This document shows positions 3,135 through 38,365 of a DNA stretch of 38,365 nucleotides, piece by piece. The first letter of the stretch is position 1. The number at the start of each line of letters is the position of its first letter. A model generated the notes under the pieces. It did not search any database. It saw only the letters and a list, made by a program, of their open reading frames with translations, and was not told the DNA's origin. Both the position numbers and the translations under genes were made by a program. Source of the stretch: Rhodospirillaceae bacterium (GTDB lineage: Bacteria > Pseudomonadota > Alphaproteobacteria > Rhodospirillales > Rhodospirillaceae); the NCBI GenBank assembly GCA_009694245.1, contig SHVO01000011.1, positions 1 to 38,365 on the forward strand, given 5' to 3'.

Positions 3135-3614
3135 CTAGAGCAGGTCCTGCAAGACCGGAATTAAGGGCTCGTCGGCGGGCGGCATGGGATAGTTACGTAA
3201 ATGCTCGGCGCGCACCCAGGCGACCTTCTGGCCCTCTTGGGGCGTCACTTTGCCCCGCCACTGGCGGCAGACATAGAGCGGCATCAAGAGGTGAAAGCTC
3301 TCATATGAATGGGAAACGAAGCTGAGCGGCGCCAGGCAACTCGCGCGGATGTCGACGCCCAGTTCCTCGTAGAGCTCGCGGATCAACGCGGCCTCGGGGG
3401 TTTCGCCGTCCTCGACTTTGCCGCCGGGGAATTCCCAAAGGCCCCCCAAATGTTTCCCCGCCGGACGCTGGGCCAGCAGAATGCGGCCGTCGGCATCGAG
3501 CAGCGCCACGGCGACAACGGTAATGACGGGGAGTCCCGCGCGCGGTTCGGGGACAGCCGGATTGAAGCAACCGTCCTCGCCGTCGGCCGGTTGTCCCGAA
3601 CTAGGTGCGGCCAT
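3135..3614 (-). CDS. mutT: MutT-like Nudix (d)NTP pyrophosphohydrolase
   Basis: A 159-residue Nudix hydrolase of the MutT (8-oxo-dGTP diphosphatase) type, which would cleanse the nucleotide pool of oxidised dGTP. The Nudix box is complete: GGKVEDGETPEAA followed by LIRELYEELGV, with the REUxEExGU glutamates present, at about residues 64-87. The segment before it (LLAQRPAGKHLGGLWEFPGG) is typical of MutT. The frame also opens at 3674 inside argJ, but the ATG at 3614 falls two bases after the argJ stop, which favours coupled translation from that start. An argJ-mutT pair is a recurrent alphaproteobacterial arrangement. A related substrate such as another modified dNTP cannot be excluded. Confidence 0.9.
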   Translation of the reverse strand: MAAPSSGQPADGEDGCFNPAVPEPRAGLPVITVVAVALLDADGRILLAQRPAGKHLGGLWEFPGGKVEDGETPEAALIRELYEELGVDIRASCLAPLSFVSHSYESFHLLMPLYVCRQWRGKVTPQEGQKVAWVRAEHLRNYPMPPADEPLIPVLQDLL

Positions 3615-10986: not shown

Positions 10987-11035
10987 GCTGCGCGTTATAG
11001 GTGCGAGGCTCCCCGCTGTCCAGGGAGGCGCACCA

Positions 11036-11062
11036 ATGTTGGCGGGTTGTGGGAGACGCTAG
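11036..11062 (+). CDS. possible 8-codon leader ORF before nhaA
   Basis: An ATG at 11036 is preceded by AGGGAGG (11022-11028) at a 7-base spacing, the best Shine-Dalgarno sequence in this region, yet the frame closes at a TAG (11060-11062) after eight codons (MLAGCGRR). The presumed nhaA start follows four bases later in another frame. It may be a leader peptide that delivers ribosomes to the weak nhaA start, or it may be an artefact of a small indel. The evidence is positional only. Confidence 0.35.
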   Translation: MLAGCGRR

Positions 11063-11066
11063 CGCC

Positions 11067-12269
11067 TTGGGTATAAAGCCAATTTCAAGCATTGAGGGGT
11101 TTCTCAAAGGCGAGGCGACGGCCGGGCTTATGCTCATGGCGGCCGGCGCGATAGCGCTGGTGGTCGCCAATTCTCCGCTGGCTTCAACCTATGCCGTTTT
11201 TCTCGATCTTCCGCTGACGGTTGGCGCGGGCACCTTCGCGCTCTCGAAAACCACACTGCATTGGGTCAACGACGGCCTCATGGCGGCGTTCTTTTTTCTT
11301 GTCGGGCTGGAGATCAAGCGCGAAGTGGTTGCGGGGGAGTTGTCCACAGGCGCCAAGGCGGCGTTGCCGGTGTTAGCCGCCGCTGCCGGCATGGCCGGGC
11401 CGGCGGCGGTCTATGCGCTCTTCAACTGGGGTTCGCCGGACTTGCGCGGATGGGCGATTCCGACCGCGACCGACATTGCCTTCGCCTTGGGAATCATCAC
11501 ACTTCTGGGCCGGCGGGTGCCGGCGTCCCTGAAGATATTCCTGACGGCGCTCGCCGTCATCGACGACCTTGGGGCTGTCCTGATTATCGCGATTTTCTAC
11601 ACCGACCAACTTTCGTGCCCGGCCCTGGTCGCCTCGGCGCTGTGCATGATTGCTTTGGCAGCTCTCAATCGCCGGGGTGTCCGAAACTGCGCGGCCTACG
11701 TTTTTGTCGGCTTGATCTTGTGGGTGGCGGTGCTGAAGTCGGGCGTTCACCCCACCATGGCCGGCGTCATCACCGCGCTGGCCGTACCCGCGAATACGGA
11801 TGATGCGGGAGAATCGTCGCTGACCGCGCTTGAGCACGCCCTCCACCCCTGGGTCGCTTTTCTCATTTTGCCGCTGTTTGCCTTTTGTAATGCCGGCGTG
11901 GCGGTTGCAGAGATCACGCTTGATGCGCTCACGCATCCCGTCACGCTCGGCATTGTTCTTGGGTTGTTCGTCGGCAAGCAGCTCGGCGTGCTCTCCATCA
12001 CCTGGCTTGCCCAGGCCGCGGGCTGGCTGCGCTTGCCTAGCGGCGCCACGGCTTGGCAATACTACGGCGTCGTCCTGCTGACCGGTGTCGGCTTTACCAT
12101 GAGCCTGTTCATCGGCAACCTGGCGTTCACCGACCCGGAATACCTGGCCTCGGTGAAAGTCGGCGTTCTAGGGGGCTCGCTGCTCTCAGGAATAGCCGGA
12201 TATGTTATATTGCGCCTTAGCTATCGCCCAGCGCCCGCGACCGATCATCATCCCGGCGCCATACAATAG
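11067..12269 (+). CDS. nhaA: NhaA Na+/H+ antiporter
   Basis: An inner-membrane antiporter that expels Na+ (or Li+) in exchange for protons. With the TTG start at 11067 it has 400 residues, close to the 388 of E. coli NhaA, and opens with the family-typical EGFLKGEATAGLML segment. The ion-binding aspartate pair is in VIDDLGA (Asp166-Asp167), the assembly-helix TD is at 135-136 (PTATDIAFALG), and the conserved lysine of TM10 is in LFVGKQLGV. No in-frame ATG lies near the expected N-terminus; GTG at 11049 and GTG at 11001 are alternatives. GGGAGA lies about 10 bases upstream of the TTG. A short leader ORF with a strong ribosome site ends four bases before it. Confidence 0.93.
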   Translation: MGIKPISSIEGFLKGEATAGLMLMAAGAIALVVANSPLASTYAVFLDLPLTVGAGTFALSKTTLHWVNDGLMAAFFFLVGLEIKREVVAGELSTGAKAALPVLAAAAGMAGPAAVYALFNWGSPDLRGWAIPTATDIAFALGIITLLGRRVPASLKIFLTALAVIDDLGAVLIIAIFYTDQLSCPALVASALCMIALAALNRRGVRNCAAYVFVGLILWVAVLKSGVHPTMAGVITALAVPANTDDAGESSLTALEHALHPWVAFLILPLFAFCNAGVAVAEITLDALTHPVTLGIVLGLFVGKQLGVLSITWLAQAAGWLRLPSGATAWQYYGVVLLTGVGFTMSLFIGNLAFTDPEYLASVKVGVLGGSLLSGIAGYVILRLSYRPAPATDHHPGAIQ

Positions 12270-29257: not shown

Positions 29258-30328
29258 CTAAAACTCGCAGGTATTCCGGTTGCGGGCCTCGATCTGCTTT
29301 TTGACGGCGGCGGTTATTTCCTCGTCGGTGGCGTAGAACTCCGGCAGCTGGCGCAGCAGGAGCGTAAAAGTGCCGGCCTTGGCTTCCTGGACTGTGACGT
29401 TCAGCTGCATGGGATTGTCCGCAAACTCAGGGTTCACCACGGCGATCTTCAGCTTGGGCATGCGCGCTTTGAGGCGCTCCACGGTTCCTAGGAACGAATC
29501 GCTGTGGAACGAGCCATTGATATGAATGACTTTGCGCCCGGCATTATTCGCGAGATGAAGCGCGATCGACTCGGCCATGGTGTCGTCGCGCGTCACTTGC
29601 GCCACGAAGCTGCGCAATTGCGTCTCGCTGGGCGGCTTGCGGGGCGCTGCTTTGTCTTTCGAATCCTCGCCACCGTGTCCGGCGTCGCCGCCGACAAAGC
29701 CCAGAAACTTGTCCTTGTAGGGACCGTCCGCTTGGTTCAATTCGGCGGCCACCCAGGCGCGCTGCTCCGGCTTGAGTCGGGTGAAGAAGGCGGTGCCCTC
29801 CCGACCGATACAACGGATGAACTTCTCGGGGGCGTTGGCGGCGACCACCGGCAGCTTATGTTCTTTGGCGTACTCGACCAGCGGCCGATAGCTGGTTGTG
29901 TAGTTGCTCCAGGCCCGGGCTTTTTCAGCGAACGGGGTCTCGCCGATACGTCCCGCCAGGTAATCATCCAGCGCCGGTTGAACGTCGCGCTCGAACTGTT
30001 CCATGGAAAGGCTTAAGTTGGGCGCGCGCGCATGTATCGCCCGTACCAGCGCCATCTCGGCCAAATGATTGCCCGGATGTTGATGGGCCTCGCCGATAAA
30101 GATCACATCAAAGCGGGCGAGCACTTCGGCGGCCTCGTCGACCGAGACGCGCCACGCCGGGCGTGCGCCGGCGTCGGTATAAATCAACGCGTAGGACGTC
30201 AGGTCGGGAAGCGATGCGTCGAGCGTCGTCGATTCCGATCCGGTCGAGCAGGCCGCGAGCATCAGCGCAAGGCCGGGGCCGGCGAAGCGACTCATGGTCG
30301 TGATAAACACTTTGCCGGCACGTCGCAT
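29258..30328 (-). CDS. ChaN-like lipoprotein
   Basis: A 356-residue lipoprotein with a ChaN/haem-binding-uptake domain (the fold of Campylobacter ChaN). The lipobox is LAAC with Cys27 as the lipidated residue. The domain signature is visible as VIFIGEAHQHPGNHLAEM (about residues 74-91), LSMEQFERDVQPALDDYLAG, and a late INGSFHSD. ChaN binds haem dimers through a tyrosine; haem binding here is only inferred. A charged insert (GGEDSKDKAAPRKPPS) interrupts the domain. The ATG at 30328 has GAGGA six bases upstream. It follows the LytM-like gene by 21 bases on the same strand, so the two form an envelope operon inserted between zapE and mdh. Confidence 0.85.
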   Translation of the reverse strand: MRRAGKVFITTMSRFAGPGLALMLAACSTGSESTTLDASLPDLTSYALIYTDAGARPAWRVSVDEAAEVLARFDVIFIGEAHQHPGNHLAEMALVRAIHARAPNLSLSMEQFERDVQPALDDYLAGRIGETPFAEKARAWSNYTTSYRPLVEYAKEHKLPVVAANAPEKFIRCIGREGTAFFTRLKPEQRAWVAAELNQADGPYKDKFLGFVGGDAGHGGEDSKDKAAPRKPPSETQLRSFVAQVTRDDTMAESIALHLANNAGRKVIHINGSFHSDSFLGTVERLKARMPKLKIAVVNPEFADNPMQLNVTVQEAKAGTFTLLLRQLPEFYATDEEITAAVKKQIEARNRNTCEF

Positions 30329-31687: not shown

Positions 31688-32671
<984 letters not shown>

Positions 32672-32689: not shown

Positions 32690-33889
32690 ATGAATATTCA
32701 TGAGTATCAAGCCAAGCAACTTCTGAAGAAGTTCGGCGTGCCCGTTCTCGCGGGCGGTGTCGCTTACACCGCCGAGGAGGCGGAGAAGGTCGCGGAAGGC
32801 CTTAAGGCCAGCGTGTTTGTCGTGAAATCGCAGATTCACGCCGGCGGTCGGGGCAAAGGTAAGTTCAAGGAGGCCGCCGCAGGCGGCAAGGGCGGCGTGC
32901 GCGTCGTCAAGTCGGCTGCCGAGGTGAAGGAAAACGCCCGCCAAATGCTCGGCAATACTCTCGTCACGCACCAGTCGGGCCCCGACGGCAAAAAGGTAGA
33001 AAGAGTTTATATCGAGTCCGGCTGCAATATTGCTCGCGAACTTTATCTAGCGATCCTGGTCGATCGCGGAACGTCGCGTGTCACCATCATGGCCTCGACC
33101 GAAGGCGGCGTGAATATCGAGGACGTTGCCCATAACTCACCCGAGAAAATCGTATTTCAGGGCATTGACCCGGCCACCGGGATTCAAGGCTTCCACTGCC
33201 GCAAAATCGCATTTGCGCTCGGCCTTAAGGACAACCAGGTCAAGTCCTGCACCAAGCTCTTGATGGCGCTTTATCGGGCCTTCCTGGAGACCGACGCCTC
33301 GATGCTGGAGATTAACCCGCTGGTGGTTACGACCGAAGGCGAGGTCCTGCCGCTCGATGCCAAGATGAATTTCGATTCCAATGCGCTCTACCGTCATCCG
33401 GACATCGTCGAACTGCGCGATGAGGATGAAGAAGATCCGATGGAGCTTGAAGCATCCCAGCATGACCTTAACTACATCAAGCTCGATGGCTCGATCGGCT
33501 GCATGGTCAACGGCGCCGGCTTGGCCATGGCGACCATGGATATCATCAAGCTCTATGGCGCTTCGCCCGCGAATTTCCTCGATGTCGGCGGTGGCGCGAC
33601 CAAGGAGCGTGTCACCACTGCTTTCAAGATCATTCTCTCGGACCCCAACGTCGAAGGTATCCTGGTGAATATCTTCGGCGGCATCATGCGCTGCGACGTT
33701 ATCGCCGAAGGCGTTGTTTCGGCGGCGCGCGAGATCAGCCTCAACGTGCCGCTGGTCGTCCGCCTTGAAGGCACCAACGTCGCGTTGGGCAAGAAGATCA
33801 TGGCCGATTCCGGCCTGCCGATCATTTCCGCGGATAACCTCGCCGACGCCGCTCAAAAAGTGGTCAAGGCCGTGAAGGAGGCCGCGTAG
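32690..33889 (+). CDS. sucC: SucC succinyl-CoA synthetase beta subunit
   Basis: A 399-residue ATP-grasp subunit that binds nucleotide and succinate. The start [19 protein letters not shown] is canonical; [15 protein letters not shown] is the nucleotide-binding lysine/glycine segment, LEINPLVVT carries metal ligands, and [17 protein letters not shown] contacts the phosphohistidine loop of SucD. The stop codon is directly followed by the sucD start with no gap, consistent with equal synthesis of the two subunits. Confidence 0.98.
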
Positions 33890-34765
33890 ATGGCCGTTCT
33901 CGTTAATAAGAAGACCAAAGTCATTTGTCAGGGATTTACCGGCAGCCAAGGCACATTCCACTCCGAGCAGGCGATTGCGTACGGCACCCAAATGGTCGGC
34001 GGCGTGACGCCCGGCAAAGGCGGCACCACCCACCTCGACCTGCCGGTTTTCGACACTGTCGCCACCGCAAAGAAGGCAACCGGTTGCGACGCGTCGGTGA
34101 TCTACGTTCCGCCGCCGTTCGCGGCCGACGCCATCCTTGAGGCCATCGATGCCGAGCTGGCGCTGGCGGTCTGTATCACCGAAGGCATACCGGTACTCGA
34201 CATGGTGCGGGTGAAACGCGCCTTACAGGGCTCCAAGACCCGCCTCATCGGGCCCAATTGCCCTGGGGTCATCACGCCGGGCGAATGCAAGATCGGCATC
34301 ATGCCCGGTCACATCCACTTGCGCGGCAAGATCGGAATTGTCTCGCGGTCCGGCACGCTGACCTATGAGGCCGTCGCGCAGACCACCGCCGCCGGTTTGG
34401 GTCAAACCACTTGCATCGGCATTGGTGGCGACCCTGTCAACGGCACCAATTTCATCGATTGCCTCGATTTGTTCCTCAATGATGACGAGACCCAAGGCAT
34501 CATAATGATCGGCGAGATCGGCGGCACCGCTGAGGAAGACGCCGCGGCATTTTACAAAGCGGCAAAAAAGAAAAAACCCATTGTCGGTTTTGTCGCCGGC
34601 TCAACCGCTCCACCGGGACGGCGCATGGGTCATGCCGGCGCCATTATTTCGGGCGGCAAGGGCACCGCTGCGGCCAAGTTTGAAGCCATGAAAGATGCCG
34701 GCTTCCTTCTGGCCGATTCGCCAGCGTTCTTGGGGTCGACAATGCTCAAGGCCATGAAGGGCTAA
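33890..34765 (+). CDS. sucD: SucD succinyl-CoA synthetase alpha subunit
   Basis: A 291-residue CoA-binding subunit. [20 protein letters not shown] is the CoA-binding loop, [21 protein letters not shown] is standard, and the phosphorylated histidine is His248 in [10 protein letters not shown]. It forms succinate, CoA and ATP/GTP from succinyl-CoA with SucC. Usually sucA follows; here two unrelated genes intervene before the broken sucA. Confidence 0.98.
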
Positions 34766-35336: not shown

Positions 35337-36006
35337 ATGATCCTCGCAGCCGAAAAGCGTTTCATCTTCATCCACGTGCCAAAAGCAGCAGGCACATCCA
35401 TCAACAGCGCGGTGTCGATGCATGACGTTTTTTTTCGGCGCGCGCGGCTCTGCGGCGCGGCAGGCCGTTGCGGAGAAAGCCGGACTGCCGCCGGCGACGG
35501 CCGGACTGACCGAACACGCGTCGGCAAAACAATTCATCGCTACATTGGGTCGCGGCGTCTTTAACGACTATTACACGTTCGGTTTTGTTCGCAATCCGTG
35601 GGATGTCGCGGTTTCGTGGTTTCACTACCGCCTGATCAACCCGACGATCGCCGGCCACGCCGAGGCCGCCGCTGCTGGAACCTTTCAGAAATACGTCCTG
35701 CAGTGTCTGACCCAGCCTGATTCGCAGCGCTTGGCGGGCTTGCAATATCCCTACTTGGTCGATGACGCCGGTCAGCTGGCGGTGTCGTTCATCGGCCGCT
35801 ACGTGTCGCTGGAACGCGACTTTGCCACGACGATCGCGCGTTTGGGGATCAGCACCTTGCCGCTCGATCACTTTAATCAGAGCTACCATGCCGCTTGGCC
35901 CGGGCTTTATACGACCGAGACGTTCGGAATTGTTCGCGCGCTGGTCGCTGCCGATGCCCAACTCTTTGGTTACTCGGCCGACCCGGCCACCTACGGCATC
36001 GGGTAA
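35337..36006 (+). pseudogene. sulfotransferase-family protein, frameshifted at a T8 run
   Basis: Two overlapping frames together make one ~222-residue sulfotransferase-like protein (Sulfotransfer_2 type). Frame one has the 5'-PAPS-binding loop FIFIHVPKAAGTSI near the N-terminus; after the run of eight T at 35428-35435 the homology moves to the +1 frame, which has the 3'-phosphate-binding GFVRNPWDVAVSWFHYR and the rest of the protein. Removing one T restores a continuous product (HDVFFGARG). The interruption is a true pseudogene, a slippery phase-variable tract, or a base-calling error. Substrate unknown; such enzymes often modify surface glycans. It begins 9 bases after the PagL-like gene. 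Confidence 0.75.
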
Positions 36007-36275: not shown

Positions 36276-37992
36276 GTGGACGGCTCTTTCATCACCGGCG
36301 CGAACGCCACGTTTATCGCCGAGCTTTACGCCAACTATCTCAAGAATCCCGCCGCCGTGGACGCCAGCTGGGCGGCTTTCTTTCGTGACGACCTTACCGA
36401 CGACGAGCCCGCGCTGCTGAGCGACCTCCACGGCGCAAGCTGGGCGCCGTCCAGTGCCGCGGTCATCGGTGTCGCCGATCCCGATGCCGCACCGGAAAAG
36501 GGCAACGGCAAGTCGGCGCCAGGTAAATCAAGCGCCGGCGATGCGCCGGCAAGCGCCGATAAGGCCGCCCTTCGCAAGCAAGCCGAGGATTCGATCCATG
36601 CGTTGCAGTTGATCCGCGCCTACCGTGCGCGCGGCCACGGCCTCGCCCATCTCGATCCGCTGGACAACGCAAAGAAGGCCGATCATCCCGAGCTGGATTA
36701 CCGCAGCCATGGCTTTACCGAGGCCGACCTTGGCCGCGAGATTCACCTGGGCGGCATACTCGGCTTTGAGCGCGCGACGTTGCAGCAGATTCTTGACGTC
36801 TGCCGCCAGACCTATTGCGGCACTATCGGCGTCGAGTTCAATCATATCCAGCATCCCAAGCAACGCGACTGGCTGGTGCGGCGGTTCGAAAAAGACCGGA
36901 TGGAGCCCAATTTCTCCAGCTACGGCAAGAAAGCGATCCTGGAACGGCTAACCGAGGCTGAAGGCTTCGAGCGTTTCCTAGGCATCAAATATACCGGCAC
37001 CAAGCGGTTCGGGTTGGACGGTGGCGAAGCCGCCATTCCGGCCTTGGAACAGATCATCAAGCGCGGCGGCCAGCTCGGCCTGAAGCAGATCGTCATCGGC
37101 ATGGCGCACCGCGGACGTCTCAACGTGCTCGTGAACGTCATGAACAAGCCCTTCAGCGCGCTTTTCTCGGAATTTCAGGGCAACTCGTCGAATCCGGAAA
37201 GCGTCGAAGGCTCGGGCGACGTGAAATATCACCTTGGCACGTCGGCGGATCGTGAATTCGACGGCAACGTCGTGCATTTGTCGCTGACCGCCAATCCGTC
37301 GCACTTGGAAGTTGTCGACCCGGTCGTGCTCGGCAAAGTCCGCGCCAAGCAAGAGCAGCTGGGCGACGCCGGGCGCAATCAGGTCATGGGCCCACTCATC
37401 CACGGTGACGCGGCCTTCGCAGGTCAGGGCAGTATCGCCGAGTGCTTCGGCTTCTCGCAGATTGACGGCTACACCACCGGCGGCACACTTCACTTTGTCA
37501 TCAACAATCAGATCGGTTTCACCACGACGCCGCGTTACAGCCGCTCGGGCCTCTACTGCACCGACGTCGCCAAGATGGTTGAAGCACCGATTTTTCACGT
37601 CAACGCCGATGATCCCGAAGCCGTAGTCTACTGCGCGCGCCTGGCTATGGAATTCCGCCAGGAATTCGGCGGCGACGTCGTGCTCGACATGGTGTGCTAC
37701 CGCCGCTTTGGCCACAACGAAGGCGACGAGCCTAAGTTTACTCAGCCGCTGATGTACAAGACGATCGAAGGCCACCCCACGGTGCGCACGATCTATGCCA
37801 AAAAAGCTCGTCCAGGAAGGCCTCTACACCCAGCAAGAGGCCGATCTGATGTTGAGCAAGTTCATGCACATGATGGAGGCCGACTTTGAATCGGCCTCCA
37901 GTTTCAAGCCCAATAAAGCCGACTGGCTTGAAGGCGCTTGGGCAGGATTTGCGCAGATGGGCGACGAGGAAGAGTACCGCGACGACAAGACC
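36276..37992 (+). pseudogene. sucA: SucA (OdhA) 2-oxoglutarate dehydrogenase E1: frameshifted and truncated
   Basis: E1 decarboxylates 2-oxoglutarate with ThDP and passes the succinyl group to lipoyl-E2. A GTG at 36276 after AAGGA starts a normal N-terminus (GANATFIAELYANYLKNP). The segment IGMAHRGRLNVLVNVMNKP and the ThDP/Mg region HGDAAFAGQG ... NNQIGFTTTP are intact. At 37800-37805 an A6 run shifts the frame: the original frame ends at 37889 while E1 homology ([33 protein letters not shown]) resumes in +1. After [10 protein letters not shown], around residue 570, E1 sequence stops, whereas family members have ~950-1000 residues. The transketolase-like pyrimidine and C-terminal domains are gone, so this E1 should be inactive. 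Sequence continues in frame into E2. Confidence 0.85.

Positions 37993-38365
<373 letters not shown>

Follow-up and report, generated by a model that had tools for sequence, protein, structure and literature searches.

Introduction

The E1 and E2 enzymes of 2-oxoglutarate dehydrogenase occur as a natural fusion in the actinobacterial OdhA/Kgd proteins, where the E2 part comes before the E1 part. The NCBIfam model NF008907 describes these multifunctional proteins. The closest separate genes are those of the proteobacterial sucA-sucB-lpdA arrangement. Two further systems are relevant to the locus described here. In Mycobacterium tuberculosis, KorAB is reported to complete the oxidative TCA cycle (PMC2773412). 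Chimeric joins are known to arise during DNA amplification (e.g. PMC1855051).

We analysed a window of 38,365 nt, i.e. the entire contig C43 of a draft genome (G000) of an uncultured Rhodospirillaceae bacterium, which ends at position 38365 within lpdA. The draft has 1,637,570 bases in 63 contigs and an estimated completeness of 76.5%. The original prediction described an in-frame chimera of E1 (SucA) and E2 (SucB) at 37980-38000, which would be either a real lesion or the product of an assembly that collapsed where both genes share a short sequence. We compared the locus with the 18 congeners of G000 (the genus thus has 19 genomes), with further genomes of the family, and with 80 named loci, selected among at least 593 candidates, the closest of which is 'Rhodospirillaceae bacterium isolate SSF9'. 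The closest relative found, G010, is the reference for the comparisons of frameshifts, spacing and dN/dS.

The join between sucA and sucB

The E1 frame does enter the C-terminal part of E2 without a stop at 37980-38000. This can be read directly in the sequence and in the match of the Pfam profile PF00198 to residues 62-152 of the 155-aa ORF (table 1). In G010, the points that touch in the window stand 2,323 bp apart, and both genes are intact: sucA as an ORF of 1,014 codons, which may begin ahead of the true start, and sucB with 423 codons. By subtraction of the ORF coordinates, the loss relative to G010 amounts to ~1.24 kb of sucA, a spacer of 82 bp and 1.0 kb of sucB. These values are near the prediction, in which roughly 1.3 kb of sucA and 0.9 kb of sucB were absent. 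The two join sites are 2,268-2,376 bp apart across eight relatives, G010 included. At the DNA level, the window is 88.6% identical to G010 upstream of the join and 89.6% downstream, and hence both sides fit one genome. The gene lpdA comes next, as predicted, with its start 5 bp past the sucB stop. The spacer between sucB and lpdA is variable: 5 bp in the window (38263-38267), 271 bp in G010 (L015 2162-2432), with ~580 bp extra in G011 and none extra in G009.

Table 1. Features at the end of the contig, in window coordinates.
Feature	Position	Strand	Remarks
Malate dehydrogenase-like gene (mdh)	31691-32671	+	Intact, upstream
sucC	32690-33889	+	Intact, upstream
sucD	33890-34765	+	Intact, upstream
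ORF of 182 codons	34779-35327		From the ORF list
Sulfotransferase-like gene	about 35350-36006	+	Pfam E = 0.0008, slightly below the cut-off of the family; frameshifted at T8
T8 homopolymer	35428-35435	+	+1 frameshift relative to G010 in the sulfotransferase-like gene; single frame in relatives
sucA (2-oxoglutarate dehydrogenase E1), N-terminal part	36276-37889	+	ORF of 537 aa; PF16078 and PF00676 in 36276-37790
A6 homopolymer	37800-37805	+	One base more than the stretch in G010; E1 frame shifted
Fused ORF, 155 aa	37795-38262	+	~65 E1 residues, then the last 88 of E2
Join point	37980-38000 (about 37990-37997)	+	From the comparison with eight relatives
sucB (E2), C-terminal fragment including SYDHRIVDG	37997-38262	+	PF00198 positions 142-231 of 232; 91% identical to G010
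lpdA (E3), first 32 codons	38268-38365	+	Truncated by the contig end

The sequence shared by the two join sites is short. Measured in the relatives, since the parental letters of G000 itself are not in the comparison, the word common to both sites has 7 bp in three relatives, 6 bp in two and 5 bp in G010, but only 3 and 2 bp in the remaining two. With so little shared in these two, a mechanism based on a short word is not certain.

The label of in-frame chimera captures one aspect of the locus and misses another. The join itself keeps the frame, but sucA has lost its frame before the join is reached, which makes the label misleading. At 37800, the A6 run breaks the gene 190 bp ahead of the join and leaves separate ORFs at 36276-37889 and 37795-38262, contradicting the claim that E1 is a single open frame up to the join. 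In the first of these ORFs, the homology to E1 stops at ~37805, and the remainder is out of frame until the stop at 37889.

Profile searches of the window ORFs and of G010 agree with the claim that essential domains of both enzymes are lost. The N-terminal domain and E1_dh of SucA are present (PF16078, PF00676), with E1_dh reaching only profile position 252 of 300 in the 36276-37790 piece. Transket_pyr and OxoGdeHyase_C are found in neither window ORF, and both are found in G010. On the SucB side, the lipoyl domain, the E3-binding domain and a full catalytic domain are missing from the window ORFs, where the end of PF00198 is what remains; all three are present in G010. Given these losses in E1 and E2, no function would be expected of the fused ORF. 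It also differs from the natural fusion, which has the E2 catalytic domain upstream of a complete E1 in one frame: the order here is reversed and E1 is incomplete and frameshifted.

Comparison with relatives

The E1 part is 95% identical to that of G010 over 505 aa. When searched in 61 genomes (G000 counted), it matched 59; G018 and G047 have no match, and G048 matches over 30 residues only. In 17 of the 18 congeners, the 505-residue stretch lies completely, or almost so, within an open frame of 850-1,057 codons free of stops. Full-length sucB is present in one copy in 16 of the 18, and is cut at contig starts in the other two (G008 and G018).

The 155-residue fused protein has a match in 71 of 73 family genomes. 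Among the matches listed for these genomes, G000 is the only one in which residues 1-155 lie in one frame. Both the E1 tail and the E2 end were found in 51 of the 80 named loci, where they are at least 2,144 bp apart. No match to the E1 tail was seen in the remaining 29 loci, which are uninformative on spacing. Hence, the same join is found neither in a genome other than G000 among the matches listed for the 73 family genomes nor in the 51 informative loci, and we have no sign of a fusion conserved in the clade. The exact sequence of the join has no match in viral contigs, a result of little weight. Two genomes (G087 and G078) have open frames of ~1,400 codons around their match to E2 that could be taken for a natural E1-E2 fusion. 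These are shadow frames of sucA running into sucB, and the separate sucA and sucB genes are normal.

Frameshifts along the contig

The stretch homologous to the A6 run keeps one frame in the five relatives where the site was found (L015, L017, L018, L019 and L020), which have AAGAAG or another broken run in a single open frame. The word search used to locate the site missed L016 and L021 and gave a spurious match in L022; these genomes have long open E1 frames.

We surveyed the rest of the contig with 39 conserved ORFs from G009. The window matches 34 of them, 29 as a single match in the same frame. The five exceptions are sucA, sucB, the sulfotransferase, a paralogue pair and mdh. The apparent frameshift of mdh, compared in G009, G017 and G012, resulted from a base doubled in the joined query and is not a real lesion. 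The short N-terminal matches of ORFs 3138-3590 and 29261-30271 were also considered as frameshifts and rejected, as the extra stretch of the relatives mostly holds stops. Beyond sucA and the sulfotransferase-like gene, no further frameshift was found among the 34 matched ORFs, in a survey that is blind to frameshifts close to the end of a gene or in ORFs that are not conserved.

The window has 20 homopolymer runs of at least six bases. Before position 34,600, 14 of these are inside matched stretches and without frameshift, and four are outside such stretches. Both runs past 34,600, T8 and A6, break a gene. The three lesions (T8, A6 and the join) are all in the final 3 kb of the contig, with about 370 bp left after the join.

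Selection on the remnants

In comparison with G010, the E1 part has a dN/dS of 0.083, the E1 tail (60 codons) one of 0.123 and the E2 part one of 0.047. Replacements specific to the window amount to 2.9 per 100 columns in E1, 5.0 in the E1 tail and 4.6 in E2, inside the range of 1.2-10.3 obtained for the other ORFs compared. The latter leave out ORF 11001-12230, which has no match in one relative, and may include some shadow frames; the stops inside some of the window segments compared precede the start codons, as read by eye in the ORF list. Among the 87 columns of E2, four that do not vary in eight relatives carry a replacement private to the window; the same count is zero for G010, five for G012 and three for G016. 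The equivalent counts in E1 are four in the window and three in G010. Three of the four in E1 (K to N, L to P and I to S) are within ~19 residues, at 37377-37433. Radical replacements specific to the window number three in E1, compared with 0-2 in four relatives.

These values give no clear sign of relaxed selection on the remnants. The private and radical replacements could reflect either decay or bad sequence. Since a very recent real lesion would look alike, the constraint on the remnants argues only against an old decay.

Other copies and alternative enzymes in the draft

The original prediction had allowed for an intact copy, or an alternative enzyme, elsewhere in the genome. In the draft, we found candidates for the second and not the first. 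The 63 contigs of the draft hold no second sucA (E1), and a profile search finds the E1 C-terminal domain (PF16870) nowhere in them. The missing 2.3 kb, searched as DNA, has no match better than E = 0.07 in the draft contigs, and there is no closely similar copy of the E2 C-terminal part of sucB elsewhere in the draft. An acyltransferase on C19 was examined as a second sucB and rejected: it is only 38% identical, and the adjoining lipoamide dehydrogenase 40% identical. The continuation of the contig was not recovered either. The remainder of lpdA was not found on the other contigs of the draft. For the final 616 bases of the window, matches to other contigs are no better than E = 0.04, and a comparison of the window end with the first 2 kb of 20 of the 63 contigs gave no exact overlap of 15 to 31 bases. 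With a completeness of 76.5%, the failure to find an intact version is weak evidence against its existence.

The draft has two alpha/beta pairs of 2-oxoacid:acceptor oxidoreductases, on C45 and C18. Both alpha subunits pass the TIGR03710 cut-off of 483 bits (619 and 602 bits). The C18 beta subunit passes TIGR02177 with 328 bits, while that of C45, scored over the part contained in the stretch analysed, reaches 247 for a cut-off of 262. We take both pairs to be of the 2-oxoacid:ferredoxin type, with 2-oxoglutarate as a putative substrate. PF01855 has a match over the cut-off in all 19 genomes of the genus. Together with the long E1 frame of 17 of the 18 congeners, this indicates that the oxidoreductase neither requires nor predicts the loss of SucAB. 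The C18 pair is at L040 (G000:C18) 107-2802, and among the 18 congeners a second PF01855 match over the cut-off is found in G015 only. The G+C content of C18 (0.579) is inside the range of 20 other contig starts. This pair may be accessory, or it may come from a foreign contig in the bin.

Discussion

The sequence comparisons make it likely that the fusion is an artefact, produced at a contig end with poor support. We prefer this explanation because the join is so close to the contig end, because it follows two homopolymer frameshifts of which one is in a gene unrelated to the TCA cycle, and because no relative was seen with the join. With one frameshift in an unrelated gene, the quality of the local sequence accounts better for the lesions than the decay of a single operon does. 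A dying operon, too, would be expected to show lesions clustered in sucA and sucB. In the organism itself, the mdh-sucC-sucD...sucA-sucB-lpdA region is probably collinear and of the type usual in the genus. Few or poor reads would underlie the final ~3 kb of the contig, and this poor support would have produced two one-base homopolymer insertions, followed by a jump of ~2.3 kb over the short shared word, probably through a chimeric or deleted molecule or read; the contig would then have stopped ~370 bp further on. So short a shared word is unlikely to mislead an assembler by itself, and hence a chimeric molecule or read must be assumed. Between the two readings offered originally, the artefact is therefore the better supported, although not as the bare collapse that was proposed: it seems more likely that the contig ends in a read that is chimeric or poor.

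A real and recent deletion of ~2.3 kb between short direct repeats, together with the frameshift of sucA, is an unlikely explanation, though one with several points in its favour. The lineage or strain would have lost 2-oxoglutarate dehydrogenase, and would obtain succinyl-CoA through a 2-oxoacid:ferredoxin oxidoreductase or not from 2-oxoglutarate. The short word common to both join sites is also typical of real deletions, the draft has neither another PF16870 domain nor another sucB of the same type, and the two TIGR03710-type alpha subunits on C45 and C18 have adjoining beta subunits. KorAB, as reported for M. tuberculosis (PMC2773412), provides a precedent. Yet, the genus-wide presence of PF01855 alongside E1 makes the oxidoreductase no marker of SucAB loss, the remnants lack clear relaxed selection, a third lesion affects the unrelated sulfotransferase-like gene, and the locus is at a contig end. 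A more specific version, in which SucAB was just lost by short-repeat deletion and the oxidative TCA cycle runs via one of the two oxidoreductases, seems distinctly improbable; apart from the common enzyme, 17 of the 18 congeners have no counterpart over the cut-off to the oxidoreductase of C18. We give hardly any credence to a working E1-E2 enzyme that would be the reversed counterpart of the actinobacterial one. The preserved frame at the join and the SYDHRIVDG motif kept in the E2 piece would suit such an enzyme, but it would lack Transket_pyr and OxoGdeHyase_C in E1, and the lipoyl domain, the E3-binding domain and the first 141 of 232 catalytic positions in E2. The frameshift moreover cuts the ORF off from the E1 start, and the arrangement is seen in no relative, be it among the matches listed for the 73 family genomes or in the 51 informative named loci. 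It is equally hard to believe that recoding unites the two ORFs into one protein with the A6 run as a slippage site. A run of six A followed by G is a possible slippage sequence. Against this, the five relatives with the site found have a broken run in one open frame, and the joined protein would still be without the lost E1 and E2 domains.

The two main explanations have different consequences. If the join is an artefact, it is a warning only: a broken core-pathway gene at the end of a draft contig should not be taken for a metabolic loss. If it is real, it would mean that a central enzyme was lost recently and that a ferredoxin-dependent enzyme took its place, a metabolic switch that can be tested. 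Should SucAB be lost, survival on a 2-oxoacid:ferredoxin oxidoreductase might be possible, by comparison with KorAB as reported in M. tuberculosis (PMC2773412).

Comparison with known systems

If the locus is an artefact, as we find likely, its form resembles that of amplification chimeras (e.g. PMC1855051), in that two nearby sites are joined at a short shared word. The likeness rests on the form of the join and not on the preparation of the G000 sample. The locus shares with the actinobacterial OdhA/Kgd the presence of pieces of both enzymes in one ORF, but the order in the window is E1 then E2, and both parts are without essential domains. The closest match is the proteobacterial sucA-sucB-lpdA arrangement as found in G010. 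The window has the same gene order, with lpdA next, and 95% and 91% identity in E1 and E2, respectively. It differs from this arrangement in having one more base in sucA and in being without 2,323 bp at the border between sucA and sucB.
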